A stretch of 43,357 nt of DNA from Magnetococcales bacterium (GTDB taxonomy: Bacteria; Pseudomonadota; Magnetococcia; Magnetococcales; Magnetaquicoccaceae). A model generated the notes under the pieces. It saw only the letters and a list, made by a program, of their open reading frames with translations. It had not been told where the DNA came from and did not search any database. Shown in pieces: positions 3,696 through 43,192 of this stretch; the stretch's first letter is position 1, and each line of letters opens with the position of its first letter. The stretch spans positions 1 to 43,357 of the forward strand of contig JADFYM010000006.1 of assembly GCA_015233035.1 (NCBI GenBank), in the 5' to 3' direction. The translations under genes were made by a program, and so were the position numbers.

Positions 3696-5606
3696 ATGAT
3701 TCAGGTGACACTGCCGGATGGTTCGGTCAAATCTTTTGCGGGTCCGGTGACGCTGGGTGGTGTGGCGGCGGCCATTGGCCAGGGATTGGCGCGGGCGGCA
3801 CTGGCCGGTACCGTGGATGGGCAACTGGTGGATCTGGATCACCCACTGGAGGCCGATGCCCTGGTGACCATTGTGACCGCCAATTCGGAGGCGGGCCTGA
3901 AGATTATACGTCACTCCACCAGCCACTTGATGGCCCAGGCGGTGAAGGAACTGTTCCCGACGGTCCAGGTGACGATTGGCCCGGCGGTGGATAACGGTTT
4001 TTATTATGATTTTGCCTTTGAGCGGCCGTTTACGCCCGACGATCTGGCCGCCATTGAGGCGCGGATGCAGGAGATCAGCCTGCGTGCCTTGCCGGTGCAG
4101 CGGGAGAGGATGGACCGTGCGGAGGCCATCGCCTTTTTTCAGGCGCAGGGCGAATTTTTCAAGGCGGAAATCATTGCTGATTTGCCCGCCGACCAGGCCA
4201 TTTCGCTCTATCGACAGGGCACCTTTGTCGATTTGTGTCGCGGTCCCCATGTGCCGAACACGAGTTGTCTGAAGGCGTTCAAATTATTGTCGGTGGCAGG
4301 GGCCTATTGGCGGGGGGATGCGCGCAACCGGCAGTTGCAACGGGTGTATGGCACGGCCTGGCCGGACAAGAAGGCGTTGGATGCCTATTTGCGGCAACTG
4401 GAAGAGGCGGAAAAACGGGATCATCGCCGTCTGGGTCGGGAATTGGATCTGTTTTCCCTCCATGAAGAGGCGGGTGGGGGGTTGGTCTTTTGGCATCCGA
4501 TGGGGGCACGGGTGCGGCAGGTGATCGAGACCTATTGGAAAAAAGTCCATGTGGAGGCGGGCTATGAGCTGCTGTTTACGCCCCATATTGCCAACCTGGA
4601 TCTGTGGCGCACCTCGGGTCATCTCGATTTTTACCAGGATTCCATGTTCAGTCCGATGATGGTGGATGAGCAACCCTACCAGATTCGGCCCATGAACTGC
4701 CCGTTTCATATTTTGATCTACAATACCCATCTGCATTCGCACCGGGATTTTCCCTTGCGTTGGGCCGAGTTGGGGACAGTCTACCGTTATGAAATGTCCG
4801 GGGTGTTGCATGGTCTGTTCCGGGTGCGCGGCTTTACCCAGGATGATGCGCATGTCTTTTGCCGGGAAGATCAGATCGAGGCGGAAATTTTGGGCATTCT
4901 CGACCTGACCCTGGCGACGTTGAAGGCCTTTGGTTTCAGCCAGTTTGAGGTCAATCTGTCGACGCGGCCCACCAAATCGGTGGGTTCGGATGCCATCTGG
5001 GAAAAAGCCACGGCGGCTTTGAAACAGGCGATTGTGTTGCGGGAACTGCCCTTTGTGGAAGATGTGGGCGGGGGAGCTTTTTATGGCCCCAAGATTGATG
5101 TCAAGATTACCGATACCATCGGGCGCAAATGGCAATGTTCGACCATTCAGTTGGACTTTAATTTACCCGAGCGATTTGATATATATTATATCGGGGAAAA
5201 TGGCGGGCGGAAGCGGCCGATCATGATCCACCGTGCCTTGTTGGGTTCGCTGGAGCGGTTTTTTGGTATCCTGATCGAGCATTATGCCGGCTATTTCCCG
5301 GTCTGGCTGGCACCCGTGCAGGCGGTTGTCCTGACCATCACCGATGACCAGAACGACTGGGCGGTGACGGTGCGGGATCGTTTGCGGGCACGGGGTTTGC
5401 GGGTGGAGGCGGATACACGCAGCCAGAAAGTGGGCTATAAAATTCGCGAGCATACCTTGAAAAAGGTGCCCTGGTTGCTGATTGTGGGGGACCAGGAGAA
5501 GAGAGAGGGGGCGGTCAGTCCGCGGGATTGCAGTGGGAAGACCTACGGCACAGTTCCGGTGGAGCAGTTCATGGACCGTCTTCTGGAAGAGACCAACCAA
5601 CATTAA
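3696..5606 (+). CDS. thrS: Threonyl-tRNA synthetase
   Basis: Charges tRNA-Thr. Domain order is complete over 636 residues. An N-terminal TGS domain starts [10 protein letters not shown]. The editing domain has [12 protein letters not shown] and [15 protein letters not shown]. The class II catalytic core includes [47 protein letters not shown] and the motif 3 region [13 protein letters not shown]-terminal anticodon-binding domain follows. The ATG lies two bases after the glmM stop with AAGGA upstream, inside glmM, so the two are co-transcribed and probably coupled. The downstream order infC-rpmI-rplT-pheS is the classical translation cluster. Confidence 0.97.
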
Positions 5607-5621
5607 CGGGGAGAGAACGCC

Positions 5622-6254
5622 ATCGCCAAACCACCTTTAAAACCGAGACCGCCGTCGCCTACGCCTCATCACGCGCCGGCCGCCCCAGCGGCAGCACCTG
5701 CCGCCGCAGTGGATACCGCACGCATCAACGAGCAGATTCGGGTTCCCGAGGTGCGTTTGATCGACGAGAAGGGCGAACAGGTCGGCATTGTCAGCCGACA
5801 GGAAGCACTCTCGCGTGCCATTGAGGCCAGTTTGGATTTGGTGGAGGTGGCACCGCAGGCCAAGCCACCGGTCTGCAAGATTATGGACTACACCAAATTC
5901 AAATATCAGAAGGCGGTGCGTGAACGGCTGGCGCGCAAGAAACAGACCCGTATCGATATCAAGGAGATCAAGTTTCGTCCTGCGACGGATGTGCATGACT
6001 TTGACGTGAAGGTCAAGAGCATTCGCAAGTTTTTGGAGGATGGCGACAAGGTCAAGTGTACCTTGCGTTTTCGGGGGCGGGAGATGGCGCATCAGGATTT
6101 GGGCATGGCCTTGTTGCATCGGGTGCGCGATGTGTTGGGAGAAGAGGCCAAGGTGGAGCAGCCGCCCAAGCTGATGGGGCGGCAGATGACCATGGTGTTG
6201 GCACCGGGTGTGGCCCCCAAAAAGGTGGGTGGGGCTGCCGAAGAGGCCGAATGA
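5622..6254 (+). CDS. infC: Translation initiation factor IF-3, AUC start
   Basis: Binds the 30S subunit, prevents 50S joining and proofreads the initiator codon. The conserved body starts [21 protein letters not shown]. It runs through [15 protein letters not shown] (linker) and [17 protein letters not shown] to a C-domain ending in the basic KKVGG tail region. I place the start at ATC 5622, 15 bases after thrS. The frame is open from there, GGGGAGAG lies a few bases upstream, and infC genes characteristically use AUU/AUC-type codons that IF-3 itself discriminates against, giving autoregulation. This adds a 29-residue Pro/Ala-rich leader to the alternative GTG at 5709, which would begin almost on the conserved core. 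Confidence 0.9.
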
Positions 6255-6280
6255 GAGGCTGATTGCCCCTTAAAAATGAT

Positions 6281-6331
6281 TAAAAAAAAAGGGTGGAGGG
6301 GTCTGGGGAGGCGGTTCTCCGCCTCCCCAGA
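6281..6331. repeat. Family B hairpin repeat
   Basis: An A-run, then GGGTGGAGGGGTCTGG, then the hairpin GGGGAGGCGG / CCGCCTCCCC. On the reverse strand it reads as a strong hairpin followed about 13 bases later by T9. Here the T-run is on the strand opposite infC, so unlike most other copies it is not oriented to terminate the preceding gene. Confidence 0.85.
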
Positions 6332-6410
6332 AAGGGTGTTCAGCAACCTGTCGGATCGGCTTGGTCGTCCCGGCCGTGGGGCGACAAAGCGATATTGCGC
6401 ACGGTCAGTA

Positions 6411-6652
6411 TCGTCATTCCCGCGTAGGCGGGAATCCAGGAGTCGTCAGACGTGCCGTATAGGCGGCATCCAGTATCGTCATTCCCGCGCAGGCGGGAAT
6501 CCAGGAGGTCCAACAGACCAAATGGATTTCCGCTTTCGCGAGAATGACGGAACAGAAAGTATCACTGATGACCGCGTGCAGTATAAATTGACAGGTCTGG
6601 CTTTGATCATCGGCCTCCCTGGATGCCCGCCTTCGCGAGCATGACGGAAATA
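6411..6652. repeat. Family C repeat cluster between infC and rpmI
   Basis: Several copies of the CGTCATTCCCGC...GCGGGAATCCAGG palindrome and decayed half-copies (about 6412-6441, 6477-6505, 6522-6549, 6611-6645). TTTGATCATCGG near 6602 resembles the end of the larger family C element. No gene is seen in 6255-6954, which splits infC from rpmI although they are normally adjacent. Confidence 0.8.
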
Positions 6653-6739
6653 GTCGCAGGATGAGGCGTGCCCGTCAATTTAGGTTTGTCAGCCCAGTAG
6701 TGGCTCAACCGGGCGGATTGGATGGGTAGGCGTTGCCAG

Positions 6740-6824
6740 TGGGGGCTTTGCCCCCAACCCCACCAGGGGCTTTGCCCCTGGACCCCACCGGGGGGGATAA
6801 TCCCCCCCGGACCCCCTTGATCAT
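6740..6824. repeat. Family A palindromic repeat (reverse orientation)
   Basis: Three consecutive palindromes (GGGGGCTTTGCCCCC, GGGGCTTTGCCCC, GGGGGGATAATCCCCCC) ending in CCCCCTTGATCATGATT. It lies about 130 bases upstream of rpmI, in the leader region where L20-type autoregulation might be sought. Confidence 0.88.
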
Positions 6825-6954
6825 GATTTTTAAAAACGGGGGGGGCCAGGTGTTTCAGTAAACTCCTGGGGTCGTTGGGATCCCGGAGTCGGTTTATTTT
6901 TTGCGATGCCGTGTTGCGGCATTGCCGTGATGGTGCAAGGAGTGAAAGAGAGTC

Positions 6955-7158
6955 ATGCCCAAGATCAAGACCCATCGAGGGGCGGCCAAGCGTTTCAGGA
7001 CGACCGGTTCCGGTAAGTTGTTGCGCAACAAGGCGTACAAACGCCACATTTTGACCAAGAAGAGTCCCAAGCGGAAGCGCGGCATGTGTGGTGTTGGCAT
7101 GGTCGCCGGTGTGGACCAGGCCGCTGTGCGCCGTATGTTGCCCAATATCAATCTATAG
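6955..7158 (+). CDS. rpmI: 50S ribosomal protein L35
   Basis: A 67-residue highly basic protein with the family start [14 protein letters not shown], followed by [18 protein letters not shown] and KRKRG. It is a small constituent of the large subunit. AAGGAG lies about 13 bases before the ATG. It is separated from infC by about 700 bases of repeats, so it may be expressed from its own promoter. rplT follows after 24 bases. Confidence 0.96.
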
Positions 7159-7182
7159 AGTTTTTTACAGGGAGACACGGCC

Positions 7183-8591
<1,409 letters not shown>

Positions 8592-38076: not shown

Positions 38077-40251
38077 TCATTGACAAGACTGCTGCTCCAC
38101 CCAGGCCCGCACGAGACGTTGCGACTCGGTCAACTGGGCGCGGGTCATTTGTTGCGCCAGTCTGTCCCGGTCCTTGGCCGCCGTCTTGTAGCCGTTCATG
38201 GTGGAAAGCGTATACCACATGTGGGCGGCAACCGGGTCTTGCAATTGTCCCTGTTCGTCCCCGTACAGGGTGCCCAAATTGTTTTGCGCCTCGGCGTGGC
38301 CCTGTGCCGCCGCCTGACGATACCACCGCGCCGCCTCCTGTTCATCCTGGGGGAGACCATCCCCATAGGCGTACAGATTACCCAAATGATTTTGTGCCTC
38401 GGCGTGGCCCTGTTCCGCTGCCCGGCGATACCAGGAGACCGCCTCGGCATAATCGGTGGCCACCCCCCGCCCATCCCGATACCGGGTGCCCAGGCAATTC
38501 TGGGCGTGGGCATCATTCTGCCCGGCGGCCTTGCGATACCAATAACAGGCCTCCTTGTCGTCCTGGGGCAGGCCCCGACCTTCGGACAGGCGGTCAGCCA
38601 ACAGGGTTTGCGCCGCCACATGCCCGGCTTTGGCCGCATTACGACATAACAACAGGGCCTGTCGGTCGTCCTGGGGCACCCCCTGTCCTGCCCAGTAGAG
38701 GATGCCAAGCTGATATTGTGCTTCCAGGTTGCCCTGTTCCGCCGCCAGACGATACCAGCGGGCGGCCTCGGTCGGATCCTGGGGCACCCCCTGCCCGCTG
38801 GCATACAAGAGACCCAAACGCAGACGGGCCACCGCATTGCCCTGTTCCGCCGCCTTGCGATACCAGGCAGCGGCCTCGCGGCACTCCTGCGGGAGACCAC
38901 GGCCCTGCTCATAGTGCAGCCCCATGTTCAACTGGGCACCCGGGTGGCCTTGCGCGGCGGCCTTGCGGTACCAGAAAACGGCCTCCTTGTCATCCGCGCC
39001 ACCTGCCTCGCGCGTGCTGCCCTGTTTCTCGCCGGTCTCCGGGCGGAGCACGCCGATGCCATTGGCGAGACAATTGCCGAGATTGTTCTGGGCGATGGCA
39101 TGGCCCTGTTCGGCGGCCTGACGATACCAGAAGGCTGCCTCATCCGCCGACCGGGGCACCCCCTTGCCACTGCGGCAGAGGTTGCCGAGATTGTTTTGGG
39201 CATTGGCGTGGCCCTGTTTGGCCGCCTGACGATACCAGTCGGCGGCCTCTTGATAATCCTGGGCAACCCCCTGGCCCTCCGCATAGCGGGCACCAAGGCT
39301 GCTTTGCGCGCCAGCATGGCCCTGCCTGGCGGCTTTCAGATACCATGAGACGGCCTGCTGATCATCTTGTGGCACCCCCTGACCCTTGTGATACAGGGTG
39401 CCCAGCGTATATTGGGCCTCGGCATGGTCGGCCTCCGCTGCCTTGCGGTACCAGGTCATGGCTTCCCGTTCGTCCAGAGGGAGACCCTGGCCTTTGCTGT
39501 AGGCCTGCCCCAGGAGAAACTGGGCGCAGGCGTCCTTTTGTTCGGCGGCCTTGTAATACCAGTAGACCGCCTCTTCGGGATTTTGGGCCACGCCGCGCCC
39601 CTGGGCATAGGTCAGGCCGAGTTGGACCTGGGCGGTGGTGTTGCCTTGTTCGGCGGCTTTTTGATACCAGGCCAGCCGTTCCCGATCATTCTGAAACAAC
39701 TCCTGGCCACTGGCATACAGGGCATCCAGGGCAGACTGGGCCCCGCGATGTCCCTGGAGGGCGGCCTTGCTGTACCAGTCGGCGGCCTCCTGGTCATTTT
39801 TCGGGGTGCCCTGGCCGGTGCTGATCATCTGGCCGAGGCTGAACTGGGCATCGGCATTTCCTTGTTCCGCCGCCTTGCGGTACCAGACCACCGCCTCCGC
39901 AGGATCCTGAGCCGTGCCCTGGCCGTTGCAATAGATATGACCCAGGAACAGTTGATGCTCCGCATGACCCTGTTCAGCGGCCTGGCGATACCAGAAAACC
40001 GCCTGTTCGCCCTCTGGTGGCACACCCTCCCCATCGCTGTAGAGATCACCCAAAAATAATTGGGCCTCCAACACACCCTGTTCGGCGGCCTGGCGTCCCC
40101 ACCGGAGGGCCTCGGCATAATCCTGGGCGGTCCCTTTGCCCTCACTATAGCAGACCGCCAGCTTGAACTGGGCGACCGCATCGCCTTGCTGGGCCAGGGT
40201 ACGCAGTTCGTCAACAGACGGTTGGCGGGTCTTTCTCAAAATGGCTGCCAT
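38077..40251 (-). CDS. Sel1-like repeat protein with 18 repeats
   Basis: 724 residues made almost wholly of 36-residue Sel1 units (consensus AQ-x2-LG-x-LY-x-x-GxGVPQD-x-x-EA-x-WYRKAAEQGHAE). I count 18, followed by a C-terminal cap ending VEQQSCQ. Unit 11 carries an extra loop of about 18 residues (ETGEKQGSTREAGGADDK). No signal peptide: it starts MAAILRKTRQPSVDELRTLA, so a cytoplasmic scaffold is expected. ATG 40251 has GGAGAAG upstream. It precedes the sensor kinase and HD-GYP regulator on the same strand, suggesting a scaffold in that pathway. Confidence 0.93.
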   Translation of the reverse strand: MAAILRKTRQPSVDELRTLAQQGDAVAQFKLAVCYSEGKGTAQDYAEALRWGRQAAEQGVLEAQLFLGDLYSDGEGVPPEGEQAVFWYRQAAEQGHAEHQLFLGHIYCNGQGTAQDPAEAVVWYRKAAEQGNADAQFSLGQMISTGQGTPKNDQEAADWYSKAALQGHRGAQSALDALYASGQELFQNDRERLAWYQKAAEQGNTTAQVQLGLTYAQGRGVAQNPEEAVYWYYKAAEQKDACAQFLLGQAYSKGQGLPLDEREAMTWYRKAAEADHAEAQYTLGTLYHKGQGVPQDDQQAVSWYLKAARQGHAGAQSSLGARYAEGQGVAQDYQEAADWYRQAAKQGHANAQNNLGNLCRSGKGVPRSADEAAFWYRQAAEQGHAIAQNNLGNCLANGIGVLRPETGEKQGSTREAGGADDKEAVFWYRKAAAQGHPGAQLNMGLHYEQGRGLPQECREAAAWYRKAAEQGNAVARLRLGLLYASGQGVPQDPTEAARWYRLAAEQGNLEAQYQLGILYWAGQGVPQDDRQALLLCRNAAKAGHVAAQTLLADRLSEGRGLPQDDKEACYWYRKAAGQNDAHAQNCLGTRYRDGRGVATDYAEAVSWYRRAAEQGHAEAQNHLGNLYAYGDGLPQDEQEAARWYRQAAAQGHAEAQNNLGTLYGDEQGQLQDPVAAHMWYTLSTMNGYKTAAKDRDRLAQQMTRAQLTESQRLVRAWVEQQSCQ

Positions 40252-40375
40252 CGCTTCTCCTTTAAAACGGCGTGAACCGGGTTCATGGTAACACAGAGTG
40301 GGTCGTTTTAAACGCTTCCAACTAACTGACTGCCACTTTTTCCTCAGACACAACCTGAAAAAGTTGAAATCACAA

Positions 40376-40607: not shown

Positions 40608-40817
40608 CCTTGATCATCATTTCGTCCACGAACTCTCCTGGATGCCCGCCTTCGCGGGCATGACGGGAATGGGTATGACACGAAATTCGCTCGTCATTCC
40701 CGCGAAGGCGGGAATCCAGGGTCAGATTGCTGGCCTCGATCAACTCGCCCAACGTCATTCCCGCGAAGGCGGGAATCCAGGGTTCTGACTGGAATGGCCG
40801 AAACGATGATCAAGGCC
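40608..40817. mobile_element. Family C MITE-like element, copy 4, with perfect 10-bp duplication
   Basis: 210 bp bounded by CCTTGATCATCATTTCG and CGAAACGATGATCAAGGCC. It contains three palindromes because one unit (CGTCATTCCCGC...CCAGGGT) is duplicated at 40692-40722 and 40755-40784. It is flanked on both sides by GGTGGTAGGG (40598-40607, 40818-40827), a perfect direct repeat. It lies directly upstream of the ion-channel gene. Confidence 0.82.
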
Positions 40818-40966: not shown

Positions 40967-43192
40967 ATGCTTCGTTCGATTATTGCGGTGATTGCCTTTC
41001 TGACGTGCTTGTCCTCGACTGTAGCGATGGCCGATACTTTTCGGATCGGCGTACTGGTTCCCCTGTCGGGGGACAAGGCGGAAAAAGGCGTACCGATAAA
41101 AAACGCCGTCGCCTTGTTTGCCGAACGCTTCAATGACCAGGCCACCGGCAGCAAGCTTGAACTGGTGGTCAAGGACGATTTCGACGACCCGGACAAGGCA
41201 CGCGCCGCTGCCATCGAGTTGGTCAAGGATCCGTCGCTGTTGGCGGTGGTCGGCCACTACTACCCTGATGCTGCCATGGCCACCGCCAAGGTATTCTCCG
41301 ACGCTCATGTTCCTTTCATCTCGCCCAACGTCAGCAATCCCGAGGTTTTCCGTGGCAATCCGTGGGCCTTCACCGCCAATATCCCGGACGATGCCCAGGG
41401 AGCCTTCATTGCCACATACATCAAAGAGGTACTGAAGAAAGACAACGTGTTGGTTGTACACACCACCGACCCGTTCGGAGTCGCTCTCAAAGAGGCCTTC
41501 CTGGCCAAGGCGGGCCGCATCGGGCTCAAGGTGCTGAAGGAGCAGGGGGTGGACAAGAACGCCACCCTGGCCAAGGACTGGGCCGCCACTGCCTTCCCTG
41601 ACAAGGCTGCCAACGCCCAGATCGGCGTTGTTGCCGCACTGACCCACAGTGAGGTGGGCCTGCAATTTCTGCCGCAACTGCGCGACATCGGCATTGCCAC
41701 ACCGGTGATGGCCGCCAACACATGGTCCAATCCACGCATCCTCAAGGAACTCAACGAAAAGGTCACCAATGATGTCTATCTGACCTCGGCTTTCCTGTGG
41801 GAGATCGCCAATCAAAAGGCATCGCACTTCGCAACCGCCTATGCGAAAAAATTCGGTGATCGCCCCTCGATTGCCGCCGCCATGGCCTATGACTCGATGG
41901 AGTTGCTGAGTGGGGCCATGGCCAGCAGCACCAAACCAACACGGGAGAGCATACGCAACCATTTGGCTGGCATCGACTGGCACCATTTTGTCGAAGGGGT
42001 GACCGGCAATCTGTTCTTCAAGAACGGTCGAGCCATGTCGGCTGAATGGGTTGACAAATATCTGCACGATAATGGCCAGCCACCGGCCCCGCCGCCGATC
42101 AGGGATCTGACGGTGCAGGCGGCGGAACGCGATATCTTCGTTGCGATGATCAGGGACGGTCGTTTCAAGGTCGCCTCGGTGCAACTGGTACAACCACACG
42201 AGGCTTACGTGCTCAAAGAGTTGGGGGAACGGATCGGTAAAGGACAGTTGCTCCTGGTTGACGGAGAGCCTTTTCACGTGGTTGATGCGGTGTTTGTCGG
42301 CGTCGACATCATCCGCATCAACGACGTCAACATCAAGGACATGCTGTGGGACGCCGACATGTTCATGTGGTTCAAGTGGGGCGGTCCCCGTCTGGATCCC
42401 AAGGATATCGAGAAGATCACCGCCGTCAATGCGGTCAAGGAACAGGCGACACTGCTCAAGGAGGATCTGTCGCATGCCACCAAGTACCGCGCCTATCGCA
42501 AGCGTCTGACACTTGGGGTGTCGTTCGATTTGTCCTCCTTTCCCTTCGATTCACAGGTTCTGCCGCTGCAAATCGCCCACGCGAATAAAAACTCGACTCA
42601 CATCATGTTGGTTCCAGATACGCGGCACATGGAAACAGGGCCGGTCACGGATGTAAAACCACAGGAGTGGACTTACATAAAGCGGGCGGTTTTCTCGGAC
42701 CTTTTTCGCTATGAATCGACCTTTGGCGACCCTGACTACCGCATGGGTACTGGCTACAAGAGCCCAGTTTATTTCTCCACGGTCAACCTGGAAATCGAAC
42801 TGAAGCGGATGATCAAGCCTTACCTGTTCACCTTTTTCCTGCCGCTGCTGATCATCCTCGGCATCATACTTCTGGTGCTGTGGGTACCGCTCGACCAGTT
42901 CGCTCCGCGCATCAACGCCGCCATTTCTGGTCTGATCGGTGTACTGGTCTATCATATGTCGCAGAAAAACTCGTTCCCCAAGGTCGGGTATACGATGACT
43001 GCCGACTACTATTTCCTGATCGCTTATGCCTTCGTGGTTGCGATGATCATATGTATCATCATTACCCAGACCATGATGTCGGCCGGTCAGAAAGATCTGG
43101 CCAAGGGATGGAACAAGAAACTGAGCTATGGTGCCTTGATCGCCGTCGTCTGCATCTATGGAGTAGTCACTCTGCTTTCCGTACTCACATGA
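40967..43192 (+). CDS. Periplasmic-binding-protein / pentameric ligand-gated ion channel fusion
   Basis: 741 residues. Signal peptide 1-22 (IIAVIAFLTCLSSTVAMA). Residues about 24-370 form a type I periplasmic binding protein of the branched-chain amino-acid/ANF-receptor class: TFRIGVLVPLSGDKAEKG, LLAVVGHYYPDAAMATAKVF, NVLVVHTTDPFG, AAAMAYDSMELL. After a PPAPPP linker (372-377), about 385-615 is a Cys-loop-type extracellular domain with the Pro-loop core FPFDSQVLPLQI (525-536). M1 about 617-640 (PYLFTFFLPLLIILGIILL), M2 about 646-666, M3 about 680-703 and M4 about 720-740 complete the channel. ATG 40967 has GGGAG upstream. Presumably an inner-membrane pentamer gated by a periplasmic solute; ligand and ion are inferred. 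Confidence 0.92.
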   Translation: MLRSIIAVIAFLTCLSSTVAMADTFRIGVLVPLSGDKAEKGVPIKNAVALFAERFNDQATGSKLELVVKDDFDDPDKARAAAIELVKDPSLLAVVGHYYPDAAMATAKVFSDAHVPFISPNVSNPEVFRGNPWAFTANIPDDAQGAFIATYIKEVLKKDNVLVVHTTDPFGVALKEAFLAKAGRIGLKVLKEQGVDKNATLAKDWAATAFPDKAANAQIGVVAALTHSEVGLQFLPQLRDIGIATPVMAANTWSNPRILKELNEKVTNDVYLTSAFLWEIANQKASHFATAYAKKFGDRPSIAAAMAYDSMELLSGAMASSTKPTRESIRNHLAGIDWHHFVEGVTGNLFFKNGRAMSAEWVDKYLHDNGQPPAPPPIRDLTVQAAERDIFVAMIRDGRFKVASVQLVQPHEAYVLKELGERIGKGQLLLVDGEPFHVVDAVFVGVDIIRINDVNIKDMLWDADMFMWFKWGGPRLDPKDIEKITAVNAVKEQATLLKEDLSHATKYRAYRKRLTLGVSFDLSSFPFDSQVLPLQIAHANKNSTHIMLVPDTRHMETGPVTDVKPQEWTYIKRAVFSDLFRYESTFGDPDYRMGTGYKSPVYFSTVNLEIELKRMIKPYLFTFFLPLLIILGIILLVLWVPLDQFAPRINAAISGLIGVLVYHMSQKNSFPKVGYTMTADYYFLIAYAFVVAMIICIIITQTMMSAGQKDLAKGWNKKLSYGALIAVVCIYGVVTLLSVLT

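Follow-up and report, generated by a model that had tools for sequence, protein, structure and literature searches.

The locus and its gene

The stretch of DNA analysed here (the window) comprises 43,357 nucleotides from a bacterium of the magnet-sensing Magnetococcales (GenBank assembly GCA_015233035.1, contig JADFYM010000006.1, forward strand). At its downstream end, a gene identified by Pfam and structure models as encoding a pentameric ligand-gated ion channel (pLGIC) subunit fused to a periplasmic binding domain (PBP) occupies 40967..43192 on the + strand and specifies 741 amino acids plus a stop codon (43190-43192). In the list of open reading frames and its translation, the frame is taken from the ATG at 40967, the probable start codon; upstream of it, the frame stays open as far as TTG 40874, the first listed start. 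The contig ends 165 bases past the stop. The long frame upstream (38077-40353) lies on the opposite (-) strand, and therefore no operon is visible around the gene. By eye, the 758-residue translation of this upstream frame resembles Sel1-type repeats, and short repeats of the type ATTCCCGCGAAGGCGGGAATCCAGGG, both direct and inverted, can be seen at window 40635-40790, upstream of the PBP-pLGIC gene.

Domain architecture

The protein begins with a probable signal peptide (residues 1-22; 40967..41032), judged from sequence and model, in which a hydrophobic N-terminal helix (residues 2-15) is followed by AMA-D. Next comes a type I periplasmic binding domain of LivJ/LivK type at about residues 23-411 (41033..42199), recognised both by a Peripla_BP_6 match in Pfam (residues 25-356, E 2.2e-45) and by its fold; the best solved structures for the N-terminal part of the model are LivJ (4gnr) and LivK (3td9), at Z 41.6 over about residues 22-411. 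The pLGIC extracellular domain, a beta-sandwich in the model that the ELIC alignment covers from residue 519 onward, spans about residues 427-614 (42245..42808) and contains the Pro-loop FPFDSQ (525-530). Four helices follow in the full-length model, all encoded on the + strand: M1 (residues 616-637; 42812..42877) with proline P626, the M2 pore helix (residues 645-669; 42899..42973, or residues 645-667 in a model of residues 427-741), M3 (residues 678-705; 42998..43081), and M4 (residues 709-740; 43091..43186). Among 18 aligned sequences, P526, F527, D528, and Q530 of the Pro-loop are invariant and the M1 proline is nearly so.

The channel part is recognised by Pfam only below threshold, as two neurotransmitter-gated channel families score 18.9 and 14.3 bits against cut-offs of 28.1 and 26. 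A phmmer search of PDB sequences pairs residues 519-720 first with ELIC (1e-10) and next with GABAA and glycine receptors (from 4.4e-8) among the best 60 of 235 matches. An AlphaFold2 model of residues 427-741, built with 27 sequences, has a beta-sandwich and four helices (mean pLDDT 86.3), and a full-length model (18 sequences, pLDDT 85.3) adds the flytrap domain; both are single chains. Against solved structures, the channel part reaches Z of up to 24.6 over 279-288 residues with GABAA and GluCl among the matches listed, and Foldseek gives a best E of 6.1e-21, with ELIC and GlyR among the matches. The ranking of folds toward GABAA receptors was rejected as evidence of selectivity, as the 50 listed matches lie within 0.8 Z and families absent from them could still belong there.

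By sequence and model, the 741-residue protein joins a LivJ-like periplasmic binding domain to a full pLGIC subunit. It has the beta-sandwich ectodomain, four transmembrane helices, Pro-loop motif, and M1 proline of the superfamily, and the type I binding domain is N-terminal to the channel as in PBP-I-fused members. Glycine and GABAA receptors carry a Cys-loop disulfide; the window protein has no cysteines in its ectodomain, its only cysteines being at residues 14, 696, and 729. The ectodomain (433-614) is near neutral, with a net charge of -2.

Fusions of this type have been described before. The available text of Tasneem et al. (PMC549065, dated December 2004) reports PBP-I fusions in Magnetospirillum and Bradyrhizobium, and by its description these prokaryotic ART-LGICs have the same order of binding protein, pLGIC ectodomain, and four transmembrane helices. 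The likeness is drawn on domain order, not on pore sequences; the gene in the window comes from Magnetococcales and has A-P-R at the pore mouth. DeCLIC is also a bacterial pLGIC with an extra N-terminal module, but its N-terminal lobes are jelly-rolls and its cytoplasmic mouth has two acidic rings, according to PMC9897478.

The pore mouth

The M1-M2 link and M2 read W-VPL-D643-QF-A646-P647-R648-INAAIS654-GLI657-GVLV661-YHMSQ-K667-NSFPK. The intracellular pore mouth is formed by A646 (-2'), P647 (-1'), and R648 (0') at 42902..42910, followed by N650 at 2', S654 at 6', I657 at 9', V661 at 13', and K667 at 19' (42965..42967), the extracellular end of M2. The initial annotation arrived at these assignments, from Ala -2' to Lys 19', by aligning M2 with GLIC on S-x-L-I and x-P-K. 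That alignment is indeed gapless, and the frame translation, the ELIC alignment, and the models agree with the numbering.

The phmmer alignment of M1 to M3 with ELIC contains a single gap, where the window's M1-M2 loop is two residues longer, and places the selectivity glutamate E229 on P647 and R230 on R648. In both AlphaFold2 models, A646-P647-R648 sit in the first turn of the M2 helix. The nearest acid before M2 in the alignment is D643 at -5' (42893..42895), and bringing it to -2' or -1' would take a shift of 3-4 residues. A register shift of M2 was ruled out by the agreement of the phmmer alignment, multiple alignments, and two models; across prokaryotic and animal channels, the multiple alignment of M2 keeps this register, as do the orthologues. 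An acid at -5' was considered as an anion-type sign and dropped as non-discriminating, since ELIC (Glu) has one too, besides GlyR alpha1 (Asp) and GABAA alpha1 (Glu).

Cation-selective pLGICs are recognised by an acidic ring at -2' or -1', where the window protein has A646 and P647. With Arg at 0', A-P-R instead has the pattern of anion-selective animal Cys-loop receptors, namely no acid at -2'/-1' and a basic 0'. The multiple alignment upholds the earlier reading that the acidic ring of cation channels is absent and that 0' and 19' are basic. The proposed likeness to the pore end of glycine and GABA receptors stands for the missing acid, Arg 0', and basic 19', but not for the order of residues, as GlyR alpha1 and GABAA alpha1 have P(-2')A(-1')R(0'). 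These receptors also differ in having Thr at 13', where the window has Val661 as in alpha7, and in lacking a binding-protein domain. From 19' onward, the window sequence KNSFPKVGY resembles RNSLPKVAY of GABAA alpha1.

The distance from the M1 proline to 0' is 22 in the window, GlyR alpha1, and GABAA alpha1, 21 in the alpha7 nAChR, and 20 in ELIC and GLIC. The window therefore has the longer M1-M2 loop of animal anion receptors, a feature that is non-discriminating among bacteria. The suggested anion-type filter thus keeps its charge pattern and a GlyR-like M1-M2 length and loses ground on Val 13' and the swapped proline and alanine. Over the membrane domain (M1-M3 block), BLOSUM62 local z-scores from 500 shuffles are 14.8 for ELIC, 13.0 for GlyR, 12.7 for GABAA, 7.4 for GLIC, and 5.6 for alpha7. 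ELIC (Erwinia/Dickeya), the closest solved sequence among the best 60 of 235 matches, shares the fold, Arg 0', and the acid at -5', but differs in having Glu229 at -1', cation selectivity, no binding-protein domain, and an M1-M2 loop two residues shorter. GLIC, whose M2 aligns without gaps, differs in its Glu -2', Asn 0', and Glu 19', in a loop also two residues shorter, and in being proton-gated.

Orthologues and the sister branch

The pore-mouth sequence DQFAPRIN is identical in the window protein and two close orthologues (3/3), one from a genome (G009) of the window's own family (L007) and the other on a 6-kb contig binned as Burkholderiales (L090). Among the three, conservation is highest in M1 and M2. 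Residues 643-668 are identical to the window at 22/26 (L007) and 23/26 (L090) positions and M1 (617-639) at 19/23 and 21/23, compared with 180/356 and 218/356 in the binding domain and 17/36 and 16/36 in residues 706-741. Because DQFAPRIN is kept in all three above the level of binding-domain identity, its conservation, judged from these alignments, is not chance. The L090 gene (4001-5068, JAJAYN010000016.1) is the closest match, at 73%; its presence in a Burkholderiales bin may reflect gene transfer or mis-binning, which the present data do not distinguish. A plasmid collection yielded 8 records, all Azospirillum, and the best place covers 40-50% of the query.

The sister branch (L008/L009) has 31-33% identity to the window and reads DKFDIKLN or DKFDVKLN, with Asp at -2' and Lys at 0' in a loop of the same length. 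In the tree of survey sequences, the pair of window and G009 has SH-aLRT support of 100, and the set that includes L008 has 99.

The window's genome has a second PBP-pLGIC gene (L006, 4670-6844, - strand, G000:C392) with T-A-S-R before M2 and no acid at -2'/-1'. By eye, its N-terminus looks less like a cleaved signal than like a membrane anchor, and strong relatives (E 6.9e-134 or better) occur in 17/48 genomes of the order, its own genome counted. In G009 (L158, 3915-7425, - strand, contig C24), the orthologue of the window gene (5098-7425) is directly followed by a pLGIC gene free of a binding domain (3915-5120), with G-P-R before M2. This arrangement suggests a possible two-subunit channel; in the window's own assembly, only the two PBP-pLGIC genes match the binding-domain-free protein.

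Survey of bacterial relatives

Genomes for the survey of bacterial relatives came from the phylum to which the window belongs, from a single class within that phylum, from the order containing a Pseudorhodoferax genome, and from the phylum containing a 'candidate division WS1' genome; this sample is not a census. From 157 loci (repeat loci and the window's included) came 96 candidate ORFs, 73 of them with a membrane-domain hit; of these, 72 had sufficient length, and the 58 left after removal of redundancy formed 47 clusters at 80% identity. The window and L090 make up one cluster and G009 another. Among the 23 candidates left out for having no membrane-domain hit are MscS fusions and ORFs truncated at the end of a locus or contig. 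PF02932 was rejected as a search model for the counts: it matched 20/48 genomes of the order at E 0.1 or better, only 2/48 above its cut-off, and also 3/14 control genomes. Some loci found with it entered the survey after a profile check.

No acid at -2'/-1' together with a basic 0' was found in 27/47 clusters; some of the 47 rows, those with long loops (L083, L132, L145, and others), are uncertain in their alignment. An acid accompanies a basic 0' in 12/47 and stands without one in 5/47, and neither is present in 3/47; altogether, 30/47 clusters lack an acid at these positions. When a 10-cluster clade representing one paralogue of the window's order is left out, the anion-like pattern occurs in 17/37. 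Pro at -1' with Arg at 0' is found in nine of the 47 clusters and exact P-A-R in one (L150). The L150 protein (from G1146, a genome in the same order as G657, the Pseudorhodoferax genome that carries L093) is a plain pLGIC in a 346-residue frame with P-A-R at -2'..0' and spacing 22. The initial annotation had held that a bacterial member of anion type would be unusual, a view that does not survive these counts. Moreover, the pattern and the expectation were already in print: according to the available text of PMC549065, six bacterial sequences share a basic residue with anion channels and about eight have a glutamate, and both selectivities are expected. Both the binding-protein/pLGIC fusion and the expectation of anion-selective bacterial members are thus already published there.

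Spacing 22 occurs in 38/47 clusters (25 without and 13 with an acid), as counted from the aligned column, since the M1 anchor column has proline in only 30/47. Loop length as an ion discriminator fits the animal references and fails in bacteria, where 13/38 spacing-22 clusters carry the acid. Among basic-0' clusters, an acid at -5' is present in 13/27 without an acid at -2'/-1' and in 1/12 with one; 10 of the 13 belong to one clade. A quick tree built from the 47 rows with the residues before M2 masked, by a short search and with several long branches, requires the acid/no-acid state to change at least 9 times. By this comparison, the state at the pore mouth has switched repeatedly.

A possible portable sensor on MscS-type pores

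Frames of 993-1192 residues were also encountered in which a binding-protein domain and a pLGIC-ectodomain-like region are joined to an MscS channel domain. Ten of those met were tested (L085, which is G033:C27 with 1022 aa, and L027, L032, L034, L082, L087, L089, L134, L135, and L136). All ten have Peripla_BP_6 and MS_channel_2nd in Pfam, and two of them carry a cyclic-nucleotide-binding domain in addition. With a profile of the ectodomain alone, the ten score 19.4-63.1 bits, compared with a best of 4.2 in 1000 shuffled sequences; the match spans nearly the whole ectodomain in 4/10 and the first half to three quarters in 6/10. A loose pattern for the Pro-loop motif was found in none of the ten. 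These matches support, without proof, the idea that the binding domain and pLGIC ectodomain together are a portable sensor. In the literature search, no paper was shown to describe the combination of binding protein, pLGIC ectodomain, and MscS, and the MscS-fused sensor may be more novel than the pLGIC pore.

Predicted mechanism and ion selectivity

The gene is predicted to encode one subunit of a probably homopentameric ligand-gated inner-membrane channel. A small periplasmic solute would close the flytrap domain, and this closure would move the pLGIC ectodomain and open the pore. The ligand is most likely a small solute, for example an amino acid, an amide, or a carboxylate, since the fold neighbours LivJ and LivK bind such solutes. 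Anions would be admitted by the five arginines at 0', the lack of an acidic ring at -2'/-1', the proline in the first turn, and an M1-M2 loop as long as that of GlyR, and Lys at 19' would aid their entry. Once open, the channel would draw the membrane potential toward the equilibrium potential for anions, or serve to release anions. One guess at its role is the sensing of solutes in osmotic or taxis responses.

Most likely the pore lets anions through, and it is probably selective for them, a reading to which we assign a probability of about 0.55. It is favored because proline replaces the glutamate, Arg lies behind it, and the loop has the length of GlyR; an anion-type pore is a reasonable inference from these residues, though unproven. 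Counted against it are Val 13', the A-P-R order, the cation selectivity of ELIC (the closest PDB sequence among the best 60 of 235 matches), and the sister branch with Asp -2' at equal spacing. Some of these same features would fit a weakly selective or non-selective pore that passes both cations and anions, with selectivity set by the ectodomain and other rings. This is a serious though lesser possibility, to which the V13' shared with alpha7 lends weight, as does the occurrence of the binding domain and pLGIC-ectodomain-like region on MscS-type pores. MscS-type pores discriminate poorly between ions. In the available text of PMC3119659, ELIC E229A becomes less selective and small anions pass, and it is not stated to be anion-selective; the window, however, has more than a lost glutamate, namely Pro -1', the GlyR-length loop, and K19'.

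Bacterial pLGICs in the literature compared, as far as its available text goes, are cationic: ELIC by measurement, GLIC by treatment, and DeCLIC by classification from its acidic rings. The literature search, which covered few subscription papers and not the selectivity of sTeLIC, brought up no functional report in which a bacterial pLGIC is anion-selective. The channel could be cation-selective despite its pre-M2 sequence, which we consider unlikely. The accessible part of PMC6800317 reports that switching the alpha7 nAChR to anions needed a proline insertion besides neutralisation of the glutamate, and that neutralisation with or without V13'T, and without the insertion, left a cation channel; in the excerpt available from PMC4795631, the selectivity site is in general insufficient. 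ELIC as nearest solved relative and the sister-branch Asp point the same way. Yet the window has no acid at -2', -1', or 19' and has Arg at 0', and known cationic members are all said to have an acidic filter (PMC9897478, in the part available). Least probable is that the pLGIC part is not mainly an ion channel on its own, acting as a signalling or structural receptor or needing a second subunit to conduct. The gene pair in G009 (L158) would suit such an arrangement, and the literature search found no conductance report for a PBP-fused pLGIC; however, a search of the window's assembly with the second protein of that pair finds only the two PBP-pLGIC genes, though the contig ends 165 bases past the stop, and conservation of the protein peaks in M1 and M2.

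Implications

A broader picture can be offered tentatively, at somewhat less than even odds. The window gene would encode a naturally occurring bacterial pLGIC of chloride type, with a LivJ-like flytrap as its gate control; most bacterial pLGICs of the kind surveyed (27/47 clusters) would be anion channels, with the well-studied GLIC and ELIC, which have the acidic ring and a short M1-M2 loop, as the exceptions; and charge selectivity would have switched often before animals. The gene is a well-defined candidate bacterial anion channel, and its sister proteins, equal in architecture and loop length but with Asp at -2', provide a natural paired control. This pair bears on whether charge selectivity was already changeable in bacteria, and on whether the rule from animal channels that contrasts an acid with a proline at the pore mouth also applies to other organisms.
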